Source: Desulfobacterium sp. | Lineage (GTDB): Bacteria; Desulfobacterota; Desulfobacteria; Desulfobacterales; Desulfobacteraceae | Direction of reading: 5' to 3' | Assembly: GCA_030145245.1 (NCBI GenBank) | Contig: JAQYWC010000081.1 | Coordinates: 1 to 54,653, forward strand | Length of the DNA: 54,653 nucleotides | Shown: piece by piece, positions 9,339 through 54,446 of the stretch | Layout of the letters: each line of letters starts with the position of its first letter | Position numbering within the stretch: the stretch's first letter is position 1 | Notes under the pieces: model-generated | Seen by the model: only the letters and a program-made list of their open reading frames with translations | Databases searched by the model: none | Told to the model about the DNA's origin: nothing | Made by a program: the position numbers and the translations under genes

Positions 9339-9919
9339 CTGAGCTCCTTTTTAAAAATAGCTGCCATCTGTTTTTTGCTTGTTTCAAGATCGTCGTTATC
9401 GATCACATGGTTGTAGCAATCTTTCTGCTCGATCTCGTTTACTGCGTTTTTCATGCGTTTTTCTATGGCCTCCTCGGAATCGGTTCCCCGGCTCCTGAGA
9501 CGCTTTTCAAGGATCTCAAGATCAGGGGCCATGATAAAGAGGGTCACGGCCGACGGAAACGCCTTGGTGATCTGCCTGGCGCCCTGGACATCGATGTCAA
9601 GAAGCAGGCTCCCGCCATTTTCCAGGGTCTCCCGGATAAAGGTGAGGGACGTACCGTAATAGTTGTCGTGGACCCGGGCCCACTCAGCCCACAGGTTGTT
9701 CTCGATCCTCTCCTCGAATGCCTCTTTTCCAATGAAAAAGTAATCTTTACCGTGGACCTCCCCTTCCCGGGGAGGCCGGGTGGTGTGGGAGACCGAGAAA
9801 GAGATTTCGGGAAATTCCTCCAGCATGAGCTTGCAGAGGGTTGACTTGCCGGCACCCGAAGGGGCGGATACCACAAATAGTTTTCCTGGTTTTTTGCTGT
9901 TTTCCAAACCTTGCTCCAT
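9335..9919 (-). CDS. gmk: Guanylate kinase
   Basis: A 194-residue guanylate kinase that converts GMP to GDP with ATP. It has the P-loop APSGAGKST at residues 19-27, the GMP-binding SHTTRPPREGEVHGKDY and DIDVQGARQI motifs, and the lid Arg motif RLRSRGTDSEEAIEKRM. The length is usual for the family. It follows remA closely in the conserved yicC-remA-gmk order and overlaps rlmB downstream. Confidence 0.95.
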   Translation of the reverse strand: MEQGLENSKKPGKLFVVSAPSGAGKSTLCKLMLEEFPEISFSVSHTTRPPREGEVHGKDYFFIGKEAFEERIENNLWAEWARVHDNYYGTSLTFIRETLENGGSLLLDIDVQGARQITKAFPSAVTLFIMAPDLEILEKRLRSRGTDSEEAIEKRMKNAVNEIEQKDCYNHVIDNDDLETSKKQMAAIFKKELR

Positions 9920-9933
9920 CCTTGTCAGAAGGT

Positions 9934-10200
9934 CTATTTTTCCTGCTCTTCCTGCTGTTTCAATGCCGAAAAACGCTGTGAAATGGTTTCCGCCTGTATG
10001 GCCGAAAGTATCACATGGTTGCTCTCTGTCACGATGATGGCCCGGGTCTTTCTGCCGTGGGTAGCATCCACCAGACGCCTTTCATCCTTTGCCTCATCCT
10101 TCAACCGCTTCATGGGGGAGGAGTTGGGAGAAAGGATTGTCACCACCTTTTCAGCCACCACCGTGTTACCAAACCCTATGTTCAGTAGGACCTGTTCCAT
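9934..10200 (-). CDS. remA: RemA/DUF370-family DNA-binding regulator
   Basis: An 88-residue protein with the DUF370 signature: [49 protein letters not shown] and [13 protein letters not shown]. RemA of Bacillus is a DNA-binding activator of matrix genes. In Gram-negatives the gene is widely found between yicC and gmk, as here, with an unproven role. The protein is soluble and basic, in line with DNA or RNA binding. The 14-bp gap to gmk suggests one transcript. Confidence 0.88.
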
Positions 10201-10217
10201 TATATCTCCTCATCAAA

Positions 10218-10242
10218 GGGGACAGATTTGAAATCTGTCCCC
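10218..10242. repeat. REP-like 25-bp near-perfect palindrome
   Basis: The arms GGGGACAGATTT (10218-10229) and AAATCTGTCCCC (10231-10242) are exact complements around a single G. The element lies in the 49-bp gap between yicC and remA, inside an operon. It is not followed by a U-tract on the coding (minus) strand, so it is not a standard terminator. The sequence resembles the class of short interspersed palindromes (REP) linked with RAYT-type transposases; copy number elsewhere in the genome cannot be seen here. Confidence 0.65.
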
Positions 10243-10249
10243 ACGCTCT

Positions 10250-11131
10250 TTATTCAATGTTCTGGACCTGTTCCCTGATCTTCTCAAGCTCAGACTTCAG
10301 ATTGACAATGGTGTGGGACAGCTCGGCCTGGCCGGACTTTGACCCCATGGTGTTGAACTCCCGGTTGAACTCCTGGATCAAAAAGTTGAGTTTCCTTCCG
10401 GCCGGTTTGCTTGACGACAGGATCTCCCTGAACTGCTTGATATGGCTGTGGACCCTGACAATCTCTTCGGAGATGTCGCTCTTGTCGGCAAGGATGGCTG
10501 CCTCCTGGGAGAGCCGCACCGGATCCAAGGCTTCCACCCCGGCCGTGAGACGGGAGATCCGCTCCATTAGACGTTCCCGGTAGATCTTCGGGATATCGGC
10601 GGCCCGGTCTTCAATGGTCTTGAGCTCAACCTCGATGAGGTTCATGCGCTCTTCAAGATCAATGGCCAGGTTCTCACCCTCGTTTGCCCGCATGGTGGTA
10701 AGGGCGGAAAGGGCCTGGGTAACGGCACTTGACACCGCCTGCCAAACCAGGTCGAAATCGGTCTCCTTTTCCTCGTCCTGGATCATCTCCCTTCCGGCCA
10801 GCACATGGTCCAGGGTGATGGCGGAATCAATGGCAAGGTTCTGCTTCAGACTTGCCAATGCCTTGTAATAGGCCCTGGCCCTTTTTTCATCCACGGCAAA
10901 ACTTGCTGCGTCCTCGGATTCATCTTTGACGGAAATACGGATCTCCACCCGTCCCCTGGCAAGGGTTCCGGCAACGATCTTCTTGATTCCATCCTCAAAC
11001 CTGCGGCAATAACCCGGAAGATATAAGGCCACATCAAGGTTCTTGCTATTGTAGGAACGAATCTCAACCTCGGCCCTGATATCGTTCTCCGTATATGACG
11101 CCTCTGAAAAGGCGGTCATGCTCTTTATCAT
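10250..11131 (-). CDS. yicC: YicC-family endoribonuclease/RNase adaptor
   Basis: A 293-residue YicC protein. The N-terminus MIKSMTAFSEA is the family's hallmark, followed by the conserved EIRSYNSKNLDV region, and the C-terminus has GRKLNFLIQEFNREFNTMGSKS and the AELSHTIVNLKSELEKIREQVQNIE block. E. coli YicC assists small-RNA decay and has been reported to cleave RNA. The start overlaps the DUF4416 stop by four bases (ATGA). The REP-like palindrome lies just downstream. Confidence 0.93.
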   Translation of the reverse strand: MIKSMTAFSEASYTENDIRAEVEIRSYNSKNLDVALYLPGYCRRFEDGIKKIVAGTLARGRVEIRISVKDESEDAASFAVDEKRARAYYKALASLKQNLAIDSAITLDHVLAGREMIQDEEKETDFDLVWQAVSSAVTQALSALTTMRANEGENLAIDLEERMNLIEVELKTIEDRAADIPKIYRERLMERISRLTAGVEALDPVRLSQEAAILADKSDISEEIVRVHSHIKQFREILSSSKPAGRKLNFLIQEFNREFNTMGSKSGQAELSHTIVNLKSELEKIREQVQNIE

Positions 11132-48223: not shown

Positions 48224-49048
48224 TTAATTCTGCTCCTCAGGAATCTCGGCAGGGGGTTGCGGCGTATGTTCGATCAAAAACTCATCTACCTTGTCCATGG
48301 TTGATGAGATCACCACATGGTTGACCGTGATCTCATCAACCATATTGTCTAAGTATGGATTCAGCAGCACCTCAAGATTTTTGGTAACCTGCTTGACCGA
48401 GTCAAGGGTCTTGACATCCTTGTAGAGGAGGGAACTTAAGAACAGATTCATGGCGTCCCTGGCCCTGGGATGGAGGACCGGCGGCGCCTGGCCCGGTTTA
48501 AGCTTCTTCAGGTTCACCTCCAGATCAAGACAGAGGTACCTGTCCTTGTCATGGGACCGGTGCTTGTTCAGGTTCACCACCAGAGGAGGCATTTGGATCA
48601 CCCTGGAAAAATTAACGATCTCCCCTGGCTTTGCCTTGCTCTTGAACCGGTTCCAGTCCTGGACATTGCCGTCGGGATATTTAAGGCTCAGCACATCCTC
48701 GTTCAGCTCAACGATTTCACAGAACAGGGTCTTGTTCTTCTCCCACAGATCCGCCAGATCTGACTCAATAACAGTCATAACAAGCTGTTCACCCTCCACC
48801 TGCCAGGTTCCCGTGGCTTTCCCCCGTTTCTCGATAATTCTGGAATGGGCCCCCTCCATCCTGATATCGGAATCCCATCCCCCCTGGGCCTTGAAGACCA
48901 GGACGGAGTATGCATTTTTGTGGGTTCGGTTCCAGCTGCCCAGAAGCAACTCATCAACGGAGGGACCTTTATCTTTTCCGCATCCTTCAACTAACAGCGA
49001 CGAAAACAACATAAAGGCGATCCCAAGCAGCAGAAGTATCTTTTTCAT
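48224..49048 (-). CDS. FliL-like lipoprotein
   Basis: A 274-residue protein with a lipoprotein-type signal (KKILLLLGIAFMLFSSLLVEGC, probable lipid Cys23; Glu at -2 is unusual). Residues 30-130 form a lipocalin-like or beta-rich region (LLLGSWNRTHKNAYSVLVF). Residues about 145-255 match FliL: IQMPPLVVNLNKHRSHDKDRYLCLDLEVNL, ARDAMNLFLSSLLYKDVKTL and a final VNHVVIS strand. FliL assists flagellar stators from the inner membrane with a single membrane helix. Here the anchor is a lipid and no flagellar gene is near. ATG 49048 has GGAG upstream. It follows the selenoprotein gene on the same strand. Confidence 0.75.
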   Translation of the reverse strand: MKKILLLLGIAFMLFSSLLVEGCGKDKGPSVDELLLGSWNRTHKNAYSVLVFKAQGGWDSDIRMEGAHSRIIEKRGKATGTWQVEGEQLVMTVIESDLADLWEKNKTLFCEIVELNEDVLSLKYPDGNVQDWNRFKSKAKPGEIVNFSRVIQMPPLVVNLNKHRSHDKDRYLCLDLEVNLKKLKPGQAPPVLHPRARDAMNLFLSSLLYKDVKTLDSVKQVTKNLEVLLNPYLDNMVDEITVNHVVISSTMDKVDEFLIEHTPQPPAEIPEEQN

Positions 49049-49144
49049 ATGAACTCCAAAGAGTAGTGGTTGCATTCCAAGTAATGAGGTATTCAGGCTA
49101 TCATGAAGGGCTTGGGTTGGTCAAGATGGAGAAAACAAGGACAA

Positions 49145-49175
49145 AAAAAAAGTGCTCCCGGGGGAGCACTTTTTA
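49145..49175 (-). terminator. Rho-independent terminator after the selenoprotein gene
   Basis: The arms AAAAGTGCTCCC and GGGAGCACTTTT form a strong stem with a tight GG-rich loop, flanked by A- and T-runs on both sides. On the minus strand it ends in a long U-run and lies about 30 bp after the selenoprotein stop. Confidence 0.85.
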
Positions 49176-49201: not shown

Positions 49202-49519
49202 TTAGGAGCAGCAGGAACCTTTTGTTCCGCAGCTTCCGCATGCAGAATCTCCCATGTCGATTTTTGAATCAAGCTTAAAGCCCATGCCTGTAAAATCGAT
49301 ACTGATCTCTTTTGCCTGCTCCATAAAGGCTTTGTCTACAACAAACTTAAAACCCTTAACTTCGTAGGTGTCATCATTCTCTTTAGGCTCATCCAGAGCC
49401 ATAGCAAGGGAAGGACCACCTCAGCCACCGGAGTTTAGAAAGAGCCGGATGGGCATGGGCTCTTTGCCGTTAAAATATTCTTGGATCTGCGTTTTGGCAG
49501 CATCTGTCATTTCGATCAT
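49202..49519 (-). CDS. HesB/IscA-like selenoprotein with in-frame UGA (Sec33)
   Basis: From ATG 49519 (SD AGGAGAG) the frame encodes [16 protein letters not shown], then [10 protein letters not shown], a TGA at 49423-49421, then [16 protein letters not shown] and on to [12 protein letters not shown] and a TAA-class stop at 49202. If the TGA is read as selenocysteine the product is 105 residues, a normal IscA/HesB length, with Sec33 at the conserved first Cys position of the family. A HesB-like selenoprotein family is known from anaerobic bacteria. Twenty bases after the UGA an exact hairpin, GGCTC-TGGAT-GAGCC, has a G in its apical loop at a distance suited to a bacterial SECIS. It should bind or deliver iron-sulfur or another redox group. 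A plain annotation would call only the 66-residue tail. Confidence 0.88.
49386..49400 (-). promoter_or_regulatory. SECIS-like hairpin
   Basis: Read on the minus strand, GGCTC and GAGCC pair around a TGGAT loop. The loop begins about 26 bases downstream of the in-frame UGA, within the range usual for bacterial SECIS elements, and has the expected G near its start. It would bind SelB to insert selenocysteine. The lower stem is not strongly paired. Confidence 0.6.
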
Positions 49520-49698
49520 ATGAACTCTCCTTGGTCTGTTGGTTATGTACCAGACTTTCATGCTGGTCTAACCATTTTAACCACAGAGCCCTGGGTTGTC
49601 AAGAACCAGCAGTTGACTTGCCATCAATCTTTATGATAACAAATCTGATCTATTGGCCAGAGCAACCACTACAACACCTAATAAAAAAGGATGACACA

Positions 49699-53498: not shown

Positions 53499-54305
53499 TC
53501 ACAGGGAGCGGTTCATGCTGCCGGAGACATACCCTTCGAGATCCACGGCAACATATTTAAAGCCCGCCTGCTTCATTGCCTCAACCACGGTTTGGCGCAG
53601 CTCTTTGTCCAGGAGTCGATCCACGGATCCGGGGTCAAGCTCTATCCTGGCCATATCCCCATGGCAACGGACCCGCACCCTTGTAAATCCAAGGTCATAC
53701 AGCGCTCTCTCCCCGTTTTCAACCATGGTCAACTTCTCCATGGTAATGCCCTCCCCATAGGGAACCCGGGTGGCAAGGCAGGACTGGGCATCCATGTTCC
53801 AGGTCTCCAGCCCCATTGCTCTGGAGCAGTCCCGGATCTCCGACTTGGTCAGTTCAGCCTCGATCAGGGGGGCCACCACGCCCATCTCACGGGCCGCTCT
53901 GAAACCCGGCCGGTAATCAGACAGATCATCCAGGTTTGCGCCGTGGGCAATGGTTTCAAAACCAAGCGCTTCAGCTTTATCCTTCAATAGGGAAAAGATC
54001 GCCTTTTTACAAAAATAACACCGTTCATTCGTGTTTTGAACAACCTCTGGGTCCGCAAGCACCCTGGCCGTCACAACCACATGGCGAATTCCGATCGTTT
54101 CGGCCATGCGAACGGCATTGTCCGCCTCTTTTTGGGATTGAAATTCCGATTTCACCGTGATGGCCACCACGGAATCGCAGCTATCCTTAGCCACGGCAGC
54201 CAGGAATGAACTGTCAACGCCCCCGGAAAAAGCGACGGCAAGGTTTTTATATCTCTTGATCTTATCAACAAGTATTTGAAGCTTATCAGGCACGGTATCC
54301 TCCAT
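53499..54305 (-). CDS. larE: ATP-dependent sacrificial sulfur transferase LarE, three-Cys type
   Basis: A 268-residue PP-loop ATPase (SGGVDSS at 27-33) of the LarE family, which makes the nickel-pincer cofactor of lactate racemase and related enzymes. NTNERCYFCKK puts Cys96 and Cys99 in a C-x-x-C pair, and Cys176 in SCLATR aligns with the sacrificial Cys of the Lactobacillus enzyme. LarE proteins with these three Cys are reported to bind an iron-sulfur cluster and work catalytically. The start ATG 54305 puts the PP-loop near residue 27, as in the family; a TTG at 54338 would add 11 residues and also lacks a good SD. No larB, larC or larA gene is in the window. Confidence 0.87.
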   Translation of the reverse strand: MEDTVPDKLQILVDKIKRYKNLAVAFSGGVDSSFLAAVAKDSCDSVVAITVKSEFQSQKEADNAVRMAETIGIRHVVVTARVLADPEVVQNTNERCYFCKKAIFSLLKDKAEALGFETIAHGANLDDLSDYRPGFRAAREMGVVAPLIEAELTKSEIRDCSRAMGLETWNMDAQSCLATRVPYGEGITMEKLTMVENGERALYDLGFTRVRVRCHGDMARIELDPGSVDRLLDKELRQTVVEAMKQAGFKYVAVDLEGYVSGSMNRSL

Positions 54306-54446
54306 GGACGACGGTTCGTAATTTCGATCCGTCAACAAAGTATTTACAAAATAACCTGAATTATATATGTGTTAAGCAGTTTTTTCAATCGGGTTGGATT
54401 GTGCGCTCGACAACACTTAAAAAAAAAAAATAATTAAAGGGGAAAT

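Follow-up and report, generated by a model that had tools for sequence, protein, structure and literature searches.

The window studied here, a stretch of 54,653 nucleotides from Desulfobacterium sp. that forms contig C40 of a 6.4-Mb genome assembly (83 contigs, estimated 99.6% complete), carries on its minus strand a gene that, judging from sequence comparison, very probably encodes a genuine selenoprotein of the known HesB-like (IscA-type) family, with selenium almost certainly incorporated at codon 33. The best overall explanation of this gene, to which we give a probability of roughly 0.6, is that its product is a selenocysteine (Sec)-decoded A-type carrier of iron–sulphur (Fe-S) clusters. 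The gene lies exactly where the first-pass annotation had placed it, and the positions of the features discussed below are collected in table 1.

Table 1. Location of the selenoprotein gene, its signals and related loci; positions are those of the window unless a genome and contig are named.
Feature	Position	Strand	Detail or basis
HesB/IscA-like selenoprotein gene	49202..49519	minus	105 residues, Sec33; ATG start 49519-49517; stop TAA, ending at 49202
In-frame TGA, codon 33, read as selenocysteine	49421..49423	minus	alignment with Cys homologues
Shine-Dalgarno-like AAGGAGAG	49525..49532	minus	5 nt before ATG
Sigma-70-like promoter TTGACA-17-TAAAAT	49574..49602	minus	11/12 matches
SECIS hairpin GGCUC-UGGAU-GAGCC	49386..49400	minus	loop UGGAU 49391-49395
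C-terminal Cys cluster, Cys94, 97, 103, 104	49208..49240	minus	translation; pLDDT <50 there
Intrinsic-terminator-like hairpin 3' of the gene	49147..49174	minus	fold z -4.89
Lipoprotein-like gene, FliL match at C-terminal part	48224-49075	minus	35.2 bits, cut-off 24.6
LarE-type sulphur transferase gene	53499-54338	minus	TIGR00268 317 bits, cut-off 150
Cys paralogue of the window genome and following ORF	L170 (G000:C72:1-20000), 9661-10486	minus	
Second tRNA-Sec/selB locus, L165	G071:C31 144350-147159		
Second tRNA-Sec/selB locus, L166	G030:C1 529912-531948		
Second tRNA-Sec/selB locus	G040:C1 576722-579503		
Second tRNA-Sec/selB locus, L167	G081:C31 4034-6069		

The 105-residue frame contains exactly one internal TGA, and a plain ORF caller recovers from it only a 66-aa ORF that starts at the ATG at position 49402, downstream of the TGA. 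The prediction that standard gene calling would miss this gene thus holds for a simple ORF finder; NCBI already has a dedicated model (NF038090, IscA_HesB_Se, NCBIfam), for which our literature search found no naming paper. The window protein matches this model over its whole length (profile positions 1-101 of 101) with 116.1 bits for a cut-off of 85, in agreement with the HesB/IscA-like assignment first proposed, and also matches Pfam Fe-S_biosyn (41.5 bits, cut-off 26.3). The Shine-Dalgarno sequence announced ahead of the upstream ATG is indeed there, and an SD-like 4-mer at most 22 nt upstream, a loose test, is found for 87/87 TGA genes and 42/42 Cys genes of the survey described below. The sigma-70-like promoter is a weak signal, with 2 such sites found against 1.2 expected in shuffled sequences, and terminator-like hairpins number 1 against 0.8 expected; the hairpin located after the Sec gene suggests that the latter is probably transcribed alone. 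None of the seven Rfam matches near the gene reaches its gathering score, and we regarded them as chance hits.

The distribution of this gene was surveyed with NF038090 in 98 whole genomes of the same order, the window's own included. A match is present in 89 of them (above the cut-off in 88), for a total of 130 matches, of which 129 were used after a 135-base fragment (G091) was dropped: 87 genes with an in-frame TGA, found in 86 genomes, and 42 genes without internal TGA (Cys-type), found in 32. Both kinds co-occur in 30 genomes, the Cys kind alone in 2; the Sec gene is present as a single copy in 85 of the 86 Sec-bearing genomes, 56 of which have no Cys form and 55 no other NF038090 match at all. 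All 87 TGA genes, that of the window included, have their single internal TGA at one shared position, align with the family model starting at its position 1 or 2, and possess the upstream part with its ATG, contrary to the possibility raised beforehand that homologues might start only downstream of the TGA. At the TGA position, 41 of the 42 Cys homologues have a Cys, as anticipated from the loop context; the 42nd (L159), in which the motif is absent, was kept in the homologue survey and in the neighbour and genome counts and left out of the motif, codon, folding and hairpin-pairing comparisons and of the tree. The UxGP motif is found in 87/87 TGA genes. The C-terminal Cys cluster pointed out in the first-pass annotation is likewise present, with a CGSC tail in the window protein and a tail CxxC in 81/87 Sec genes (CGC in 1/87); it is not special to the Sec form, at least three tail Cys being found in 87/87 Sec genes and 41/41 Cys genes, so that the tail does not by itself establish a Sec-specific redox pair. 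Among relatives that bear a name, the nearest are a Desulfobacterium sp. MAG (96% identity), Desulfocicer vacuolatum (78%) and Desulfamplus (76-82%). As a separate observation, TGA also serves as the terminal stop in 42/87 Sec genes compared with 3/42 Cys genes, which shared ancestry may explain.

Bacterial SECIS elements are hairpins located just downstream of the UGA, with a G among the first two bases of a loop that lies 16-37 nt after the UGA. The hairpin proposed in the first-pass annotation conforms to this description, with 25 nt between the UGA and its UGGAU loop, and its five pairs are all formed in 81/87 TGA genes against 0/41 Cys genes; the remaining six Sec genes have only 3 or 4 pairs, and shifting one arm by 1-3 nt in either direction leaves five pairs in 0/87 TGA genes. 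A scan for any hairpin fitting the same description yields one in 85/87 Sec genes versus 9/41 Cys genes. Codon usage points in the same direction: among genes with the common residue, codons 8-11 after the TGA are nearly fixed in Sec genes (GCT 85/86, CTG 87/87, GAT 79/87, GAG 83/86), when at least four synonyms are used at each of codons 1 to 6, and Cys genes vary in their choice of synonyms at codons 8-11; among genes encoding the peptide ALDE, the exact GCTCTGGATGAG is found in 75/85 Sec genes and 1/26 Cys genes. Most hairpin pairs vary little, so that covariation is slight; pairing-preserving double changes are seen in L029 (G-C to U-A) and in L155 (C-G to U-A), the latter having the usual hairpin. 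Taken alone, the window sequence gives no significant folding signal, since 212 of 2000 synonymous-codon shuffles reach an equal or better fold (z -1.31), and neither do three window stretches holding the hairpin (fold z -0.62, -0.92 and -0.47); a 5-bp hairpin at the same place arises in 989 of 20000 synonymous shuffles. Across genes, the mean fold z is -1.39 for the 87 Sec genes versus -0.52 for the 41 Cys genes. The case for a SECIS element hence rests on the comparison of Sec with Cys genes.

A search of the window genome for the machinery needed to decode the codon gave one match each, above the curated cut-offs, for selA (601 bits), selB (363 bits), tRNA-Sec (75.7 bits) and selD (373 bits), the last with an in-frame TGA of its own. 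With the thresholds used, a tRNA-Sec or a selB match is present in 84 of the 86 genomes with a TGA gene, and both in 70; the two genomes with neither are 70% and 88% complete. Conversely, 12 genomes lack a Sec gene, yet tRNA-Sec is present in 8 of them. Several of these are incomplete; G022, also among the eight, is 95% complete and has Cys forms only, which indicates that the Sec form is either dispensable there or missing from the assemblies. Beside this, four relatives have a second, lower-scoring tRNA-Sec (52-58 bits) next to a second selB; in G071 a Cys HesB gene directly adjoins this pair, and in G081 the pair is clustered with formate dehydrogenase, yedF, yedE and selD.

From an evolutionary perspective, we computed a tree from 128 proteins after masking the Sec/Cys residue. 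The alignment has few columns, a large number of forks lack resolution and the bootstrap did not converge. In this tree, 86 of the 87 Sec genes fall into one 87-row branch (support 97/87), whose remaining row is a Cys gene (L157), its genome having a Sec gene as well; the other Sec gene, L155, sits on a very long branch and its placement is unsure. On this basis, the Sec gene looks vertically inherited, with its Sec retained, and the Cys genes look like old paralogues rather than recent replacements. Beyond the order, 111 of 197 genomes from the phylum have an NF038090 match, 84 of them above the cut-off. Five genomes from other parts of the phylum, picked for two closely spaced matches, carry Sec and Cys HesB genes in tandem, with starts about 410-470 bases apart (L175, L176, L177, L178 and L179). 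A match with apparently two TGAs in a distant genome (G287) was set aside, its second TGA being the terminal stop.

Structure prediction is consistent with the family assignment. An AlphaFold2 model, built with Cys in place of Sec from an alignment of 14 sequences (the window protein and 13 of 14 relative loci, L062 being left out), has a mean pLDDT of 79.8, with values below 50 in the tail, and the predicted fold is closest to IscA and SufA. Indeed, the ten PDB chains recovered by Foldseek at E <= 0.001 are IscA (four), SufA (two), 1nwb, 2apn, DsrR (2k4z) and the complex entry 9a4q, the alignment to 1r94 having an E of 4.9e-7 and a TM-score of 0.65 by query length. A sequence profile matched six PDB entries at E <= 0.01, namely IscA (yfhF 1s98 and 1r94; 1x0g), SufA (2d2a), 1nwb and 2apn.

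It is also of interest to ask which other A-type proteins the window genome may have. A TIGR00049 search of this genome found no classical IscA, SufA or ErpA: at E <= 0.001 it matched only the Sec protein and its Cys paralogue, both below the cut-off, with two further matches at chance level, and the same model scores above its cut-off in 8 of 14 control genomes. PF01521, searched over the 98 genomes, has matches in 2, both at NF038090 Cys genes; as it missed both family members of the window genome, that search can rule out only near-canonical members. The window genome also has four NifU_N (IscU-type scaffold) matches.

In the window, the Sec gene is flanked by a divergent ndk gene (nucleoside diphosphate kinase) and, downstream, by the lipoprotein-like gene with the FliL match. 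Clustering of the neighbours of the Sec loci, with annotation for the families present in the window, shows that the FliL-like lipoprotein family is the commonest neighbour (downstream of 37/87 Sec genes) and that the ndk family lies upstream of 9/87; no operon partner is widely shared, no neighbour family exceeding 37 of the 87 loci. Upstream of the Cys paralogue of the window genome lies a gene whose product has 4Fe-4S and CCG domains; 5 nt downstream of the paralogue comes a 169-aa ORF that weakly matches a ParE-like family (26.8 bits, cut-off 24.4). Short ORFs of the same family as this one follow 26 of the 42 Cys genes (median gap 14 nt), so that its product may have an accessory role instead of being a toxin. 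Beyond this ORF come an ORF on the opposite strand, then hypC, hypF, hypD and a gene with AIR-synthase domains, likely hypE given its neighbours. In Escherichia coli, cluster delivery to hydrogenases needs IscA and ErpA (PMC3283652; PMC10847431), so that an A-type protein near hyp genes fits; the Fe-containing modification of HypC is nonetheless retained when erpA and iscA are mutated (PMC10847431).

According to the mechanism that we favor, SelB would, with the help of the SECIS hairpin, insert Sec at codon 33, at the position that the first conserved Cys occupies in A-type proteins; Sec33 and the Cys of the flexible C-terminal tail could then bind an Fe-S cluster or iron between subunits, the bound cluster or iron would be passed to client enzymes, and the selenolate might tune cluster stability and transfer speed in an anaerobic, sulphide-rich cell. 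Doubts about the decoding step would take the TGA for a genuine stop, or for an artefact of sequencing, and would see in the frame either a pseudogene or the gene of a 66-aa protein starting at the downstream ATG, a view in line with the mechanical ORF list and with a folding energy that is ordinary for a single sequence in the hairpin region. The conservation of this TGA and of the sequence on either side of it in 87 genes from 86 genomes, the pairing contrast between Sec and Cys genes, the full Sec machinery of the genome and the upstream 32 residues, which are not decayed in relatives, make this exceedingly improbable, and the 87 TGA genes together with the SECIS comparison led us to reject the stop, pseudogene and sequencing-error readings. 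That the protein works as an A-type Fe-S cluster carrier is a proposal towards which we lean with more reserve. Against it, the Cys-Gly-Cys tail of IscA is replaced (CxxC in most Sec genes), the window gene is not by isc or suf genes and its family has no regular neighbour, TIGR01911 is not passed, and genomes with tRNA-Sec can lack the Sec gene, among them G022 with its Cys forms only. Moreover, a disruption mutant of the HesB-like selenoprotein of Methanococcus maripaludis is unimpaired in nitrogen fixation, a result cited as unpublished in the excerpt available of PMC11097638.

An alternative is an A-type-fold selenoprotein engaged in redox chemistry, in which Sec33 and a tail Cys would form a selenenylsulphide and the protein would act as a thiol/disulphide or peroxide reductase instead of a carrier. 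A recent review considers it likely that most uncharacterized selenoproteins have redox functions (PMC13188914); the tail CxxC is common, at least three tail Cys are found in every Sec gene, and Sec has been kept throughout the Sec branch, with one nested Cys gene. However, the active site reads U-x-G-P, with no UxxC there, the Cys paralogues have the same tail, the fold and the family are those of cluster carriers, and the Cys paralogue of the window genome lies near hypC, hypF and hypD, all of which leaves the reductase unlikely, if worth keeping in mind. We regard as less probable still that Sec33 and the tail Cys bind or store iron, or another metal or metalloid, without cluster transfer. 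The Cys-rich, low-confidence tail would be compatible with such a role, and Sec has been suggested as a possible metal ligand in some other prokaryotic selenoproteins (PMC13188914, in part); however, a Sec form carried by 86 of the 98 genomes fits housekeeping better than detoxification, and in the window the gene has ndk on one side and the FliL-like lipoprotein gene on the other.

If the carrier reading is right, the co-occurrence of Sec and Cys forms raises the question of their respective roles. Tentatively, the Sec form might be the general A-type protein and the Cys paralogue might serve hydrogenase or Hdr-type enzymes. A stronger version, which we deem rather unlikely, is that in this order the sole general A-type Fe-S carrier is a selenoprotein, with the Cys paralogue, where present, reserved for hydrogenase/Hdr maturation; if true, the whole of Fe-S enzyme assembly would depend on selenium supply. 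The breadth of the Sec form, the many Sec-bearing genomes in which it is the only NF038090 match, and the failure of the TIGR00049 search to reveal a classical A-type carrier in the window genome predict a selenium-dependent step in Fe-S assembly, for which the Cys paralogues, devoid of the five-pair SECIS hairpin, offer a natural control. The family itself has already been described; the comparison presented here makes the selenium dependence of Fe-S assembly directly testable. In the excerpts available of earlier work, HesB-like proteins are counted with the known selenoproteins as early as 2005 (PMC1242214) and tabulated in deltaproteobacteria and elsewhere, including Syntrophobacter, Syntrophus, Geobacter sulfurreducens and Desulfovibrio, among others (PMC1794560). 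The HesB-like selenoprotein of M. maripaludis came to light through mutagenesis and 75Se labelling, and its role is called unclear (PMC11097638), and a 2026 review lists HesB-like selenoproteins with the motif UxGP and considers most selenoprotein functions unclear (PMC13188914). The accessible parts of PMC11588087, PMC8318568 and PMC12013277 hold nothing on this family, and in a literature search that mostly left subscription papers outside its scope we noticed no biochemical study of a HesB-like selenoprotein.

Compared with known systems, the window protein stands close to the canonical A-type carriers IscA, SufA and ErpA, and differs from them in several respects. It matches their models below the curated cut-offs, with 43.5, 35.2, 36.9 and 30.2 bits for TIGR00049, TIGR02011, TIGR01997 and NF010147 (cut-offs 58.8, 150.6, 136.2 and 117, respectively). 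A-type carriers have a Cys where the window protein has its Sec, and in IscA-type chains it is the Cys of the GC(S/G)G loop that aligns with Sec33. The C-terminal motif of IscA is Cys-Gly-Cys, whereas the window protein and its Sec relatives have a CxxC-type tail instead; within the window, the Sec gene is not beside isc or suf genes. Compared with models built for selenoproteins, its score for TIGR01911 (HesB_rel_seleno) is 41.5 bits, below the cut-off of 66.35, which by that model would place it in a different subfamily. No tested feature separates it from NF038090, a model whose range extends to Cys genes, including the paralogue in the window genome (103.6 bits), and it has its Sec in UxGP, as do the HesB-like selenoproteins in the published sense (PMC13188914, as far as its available text goes).
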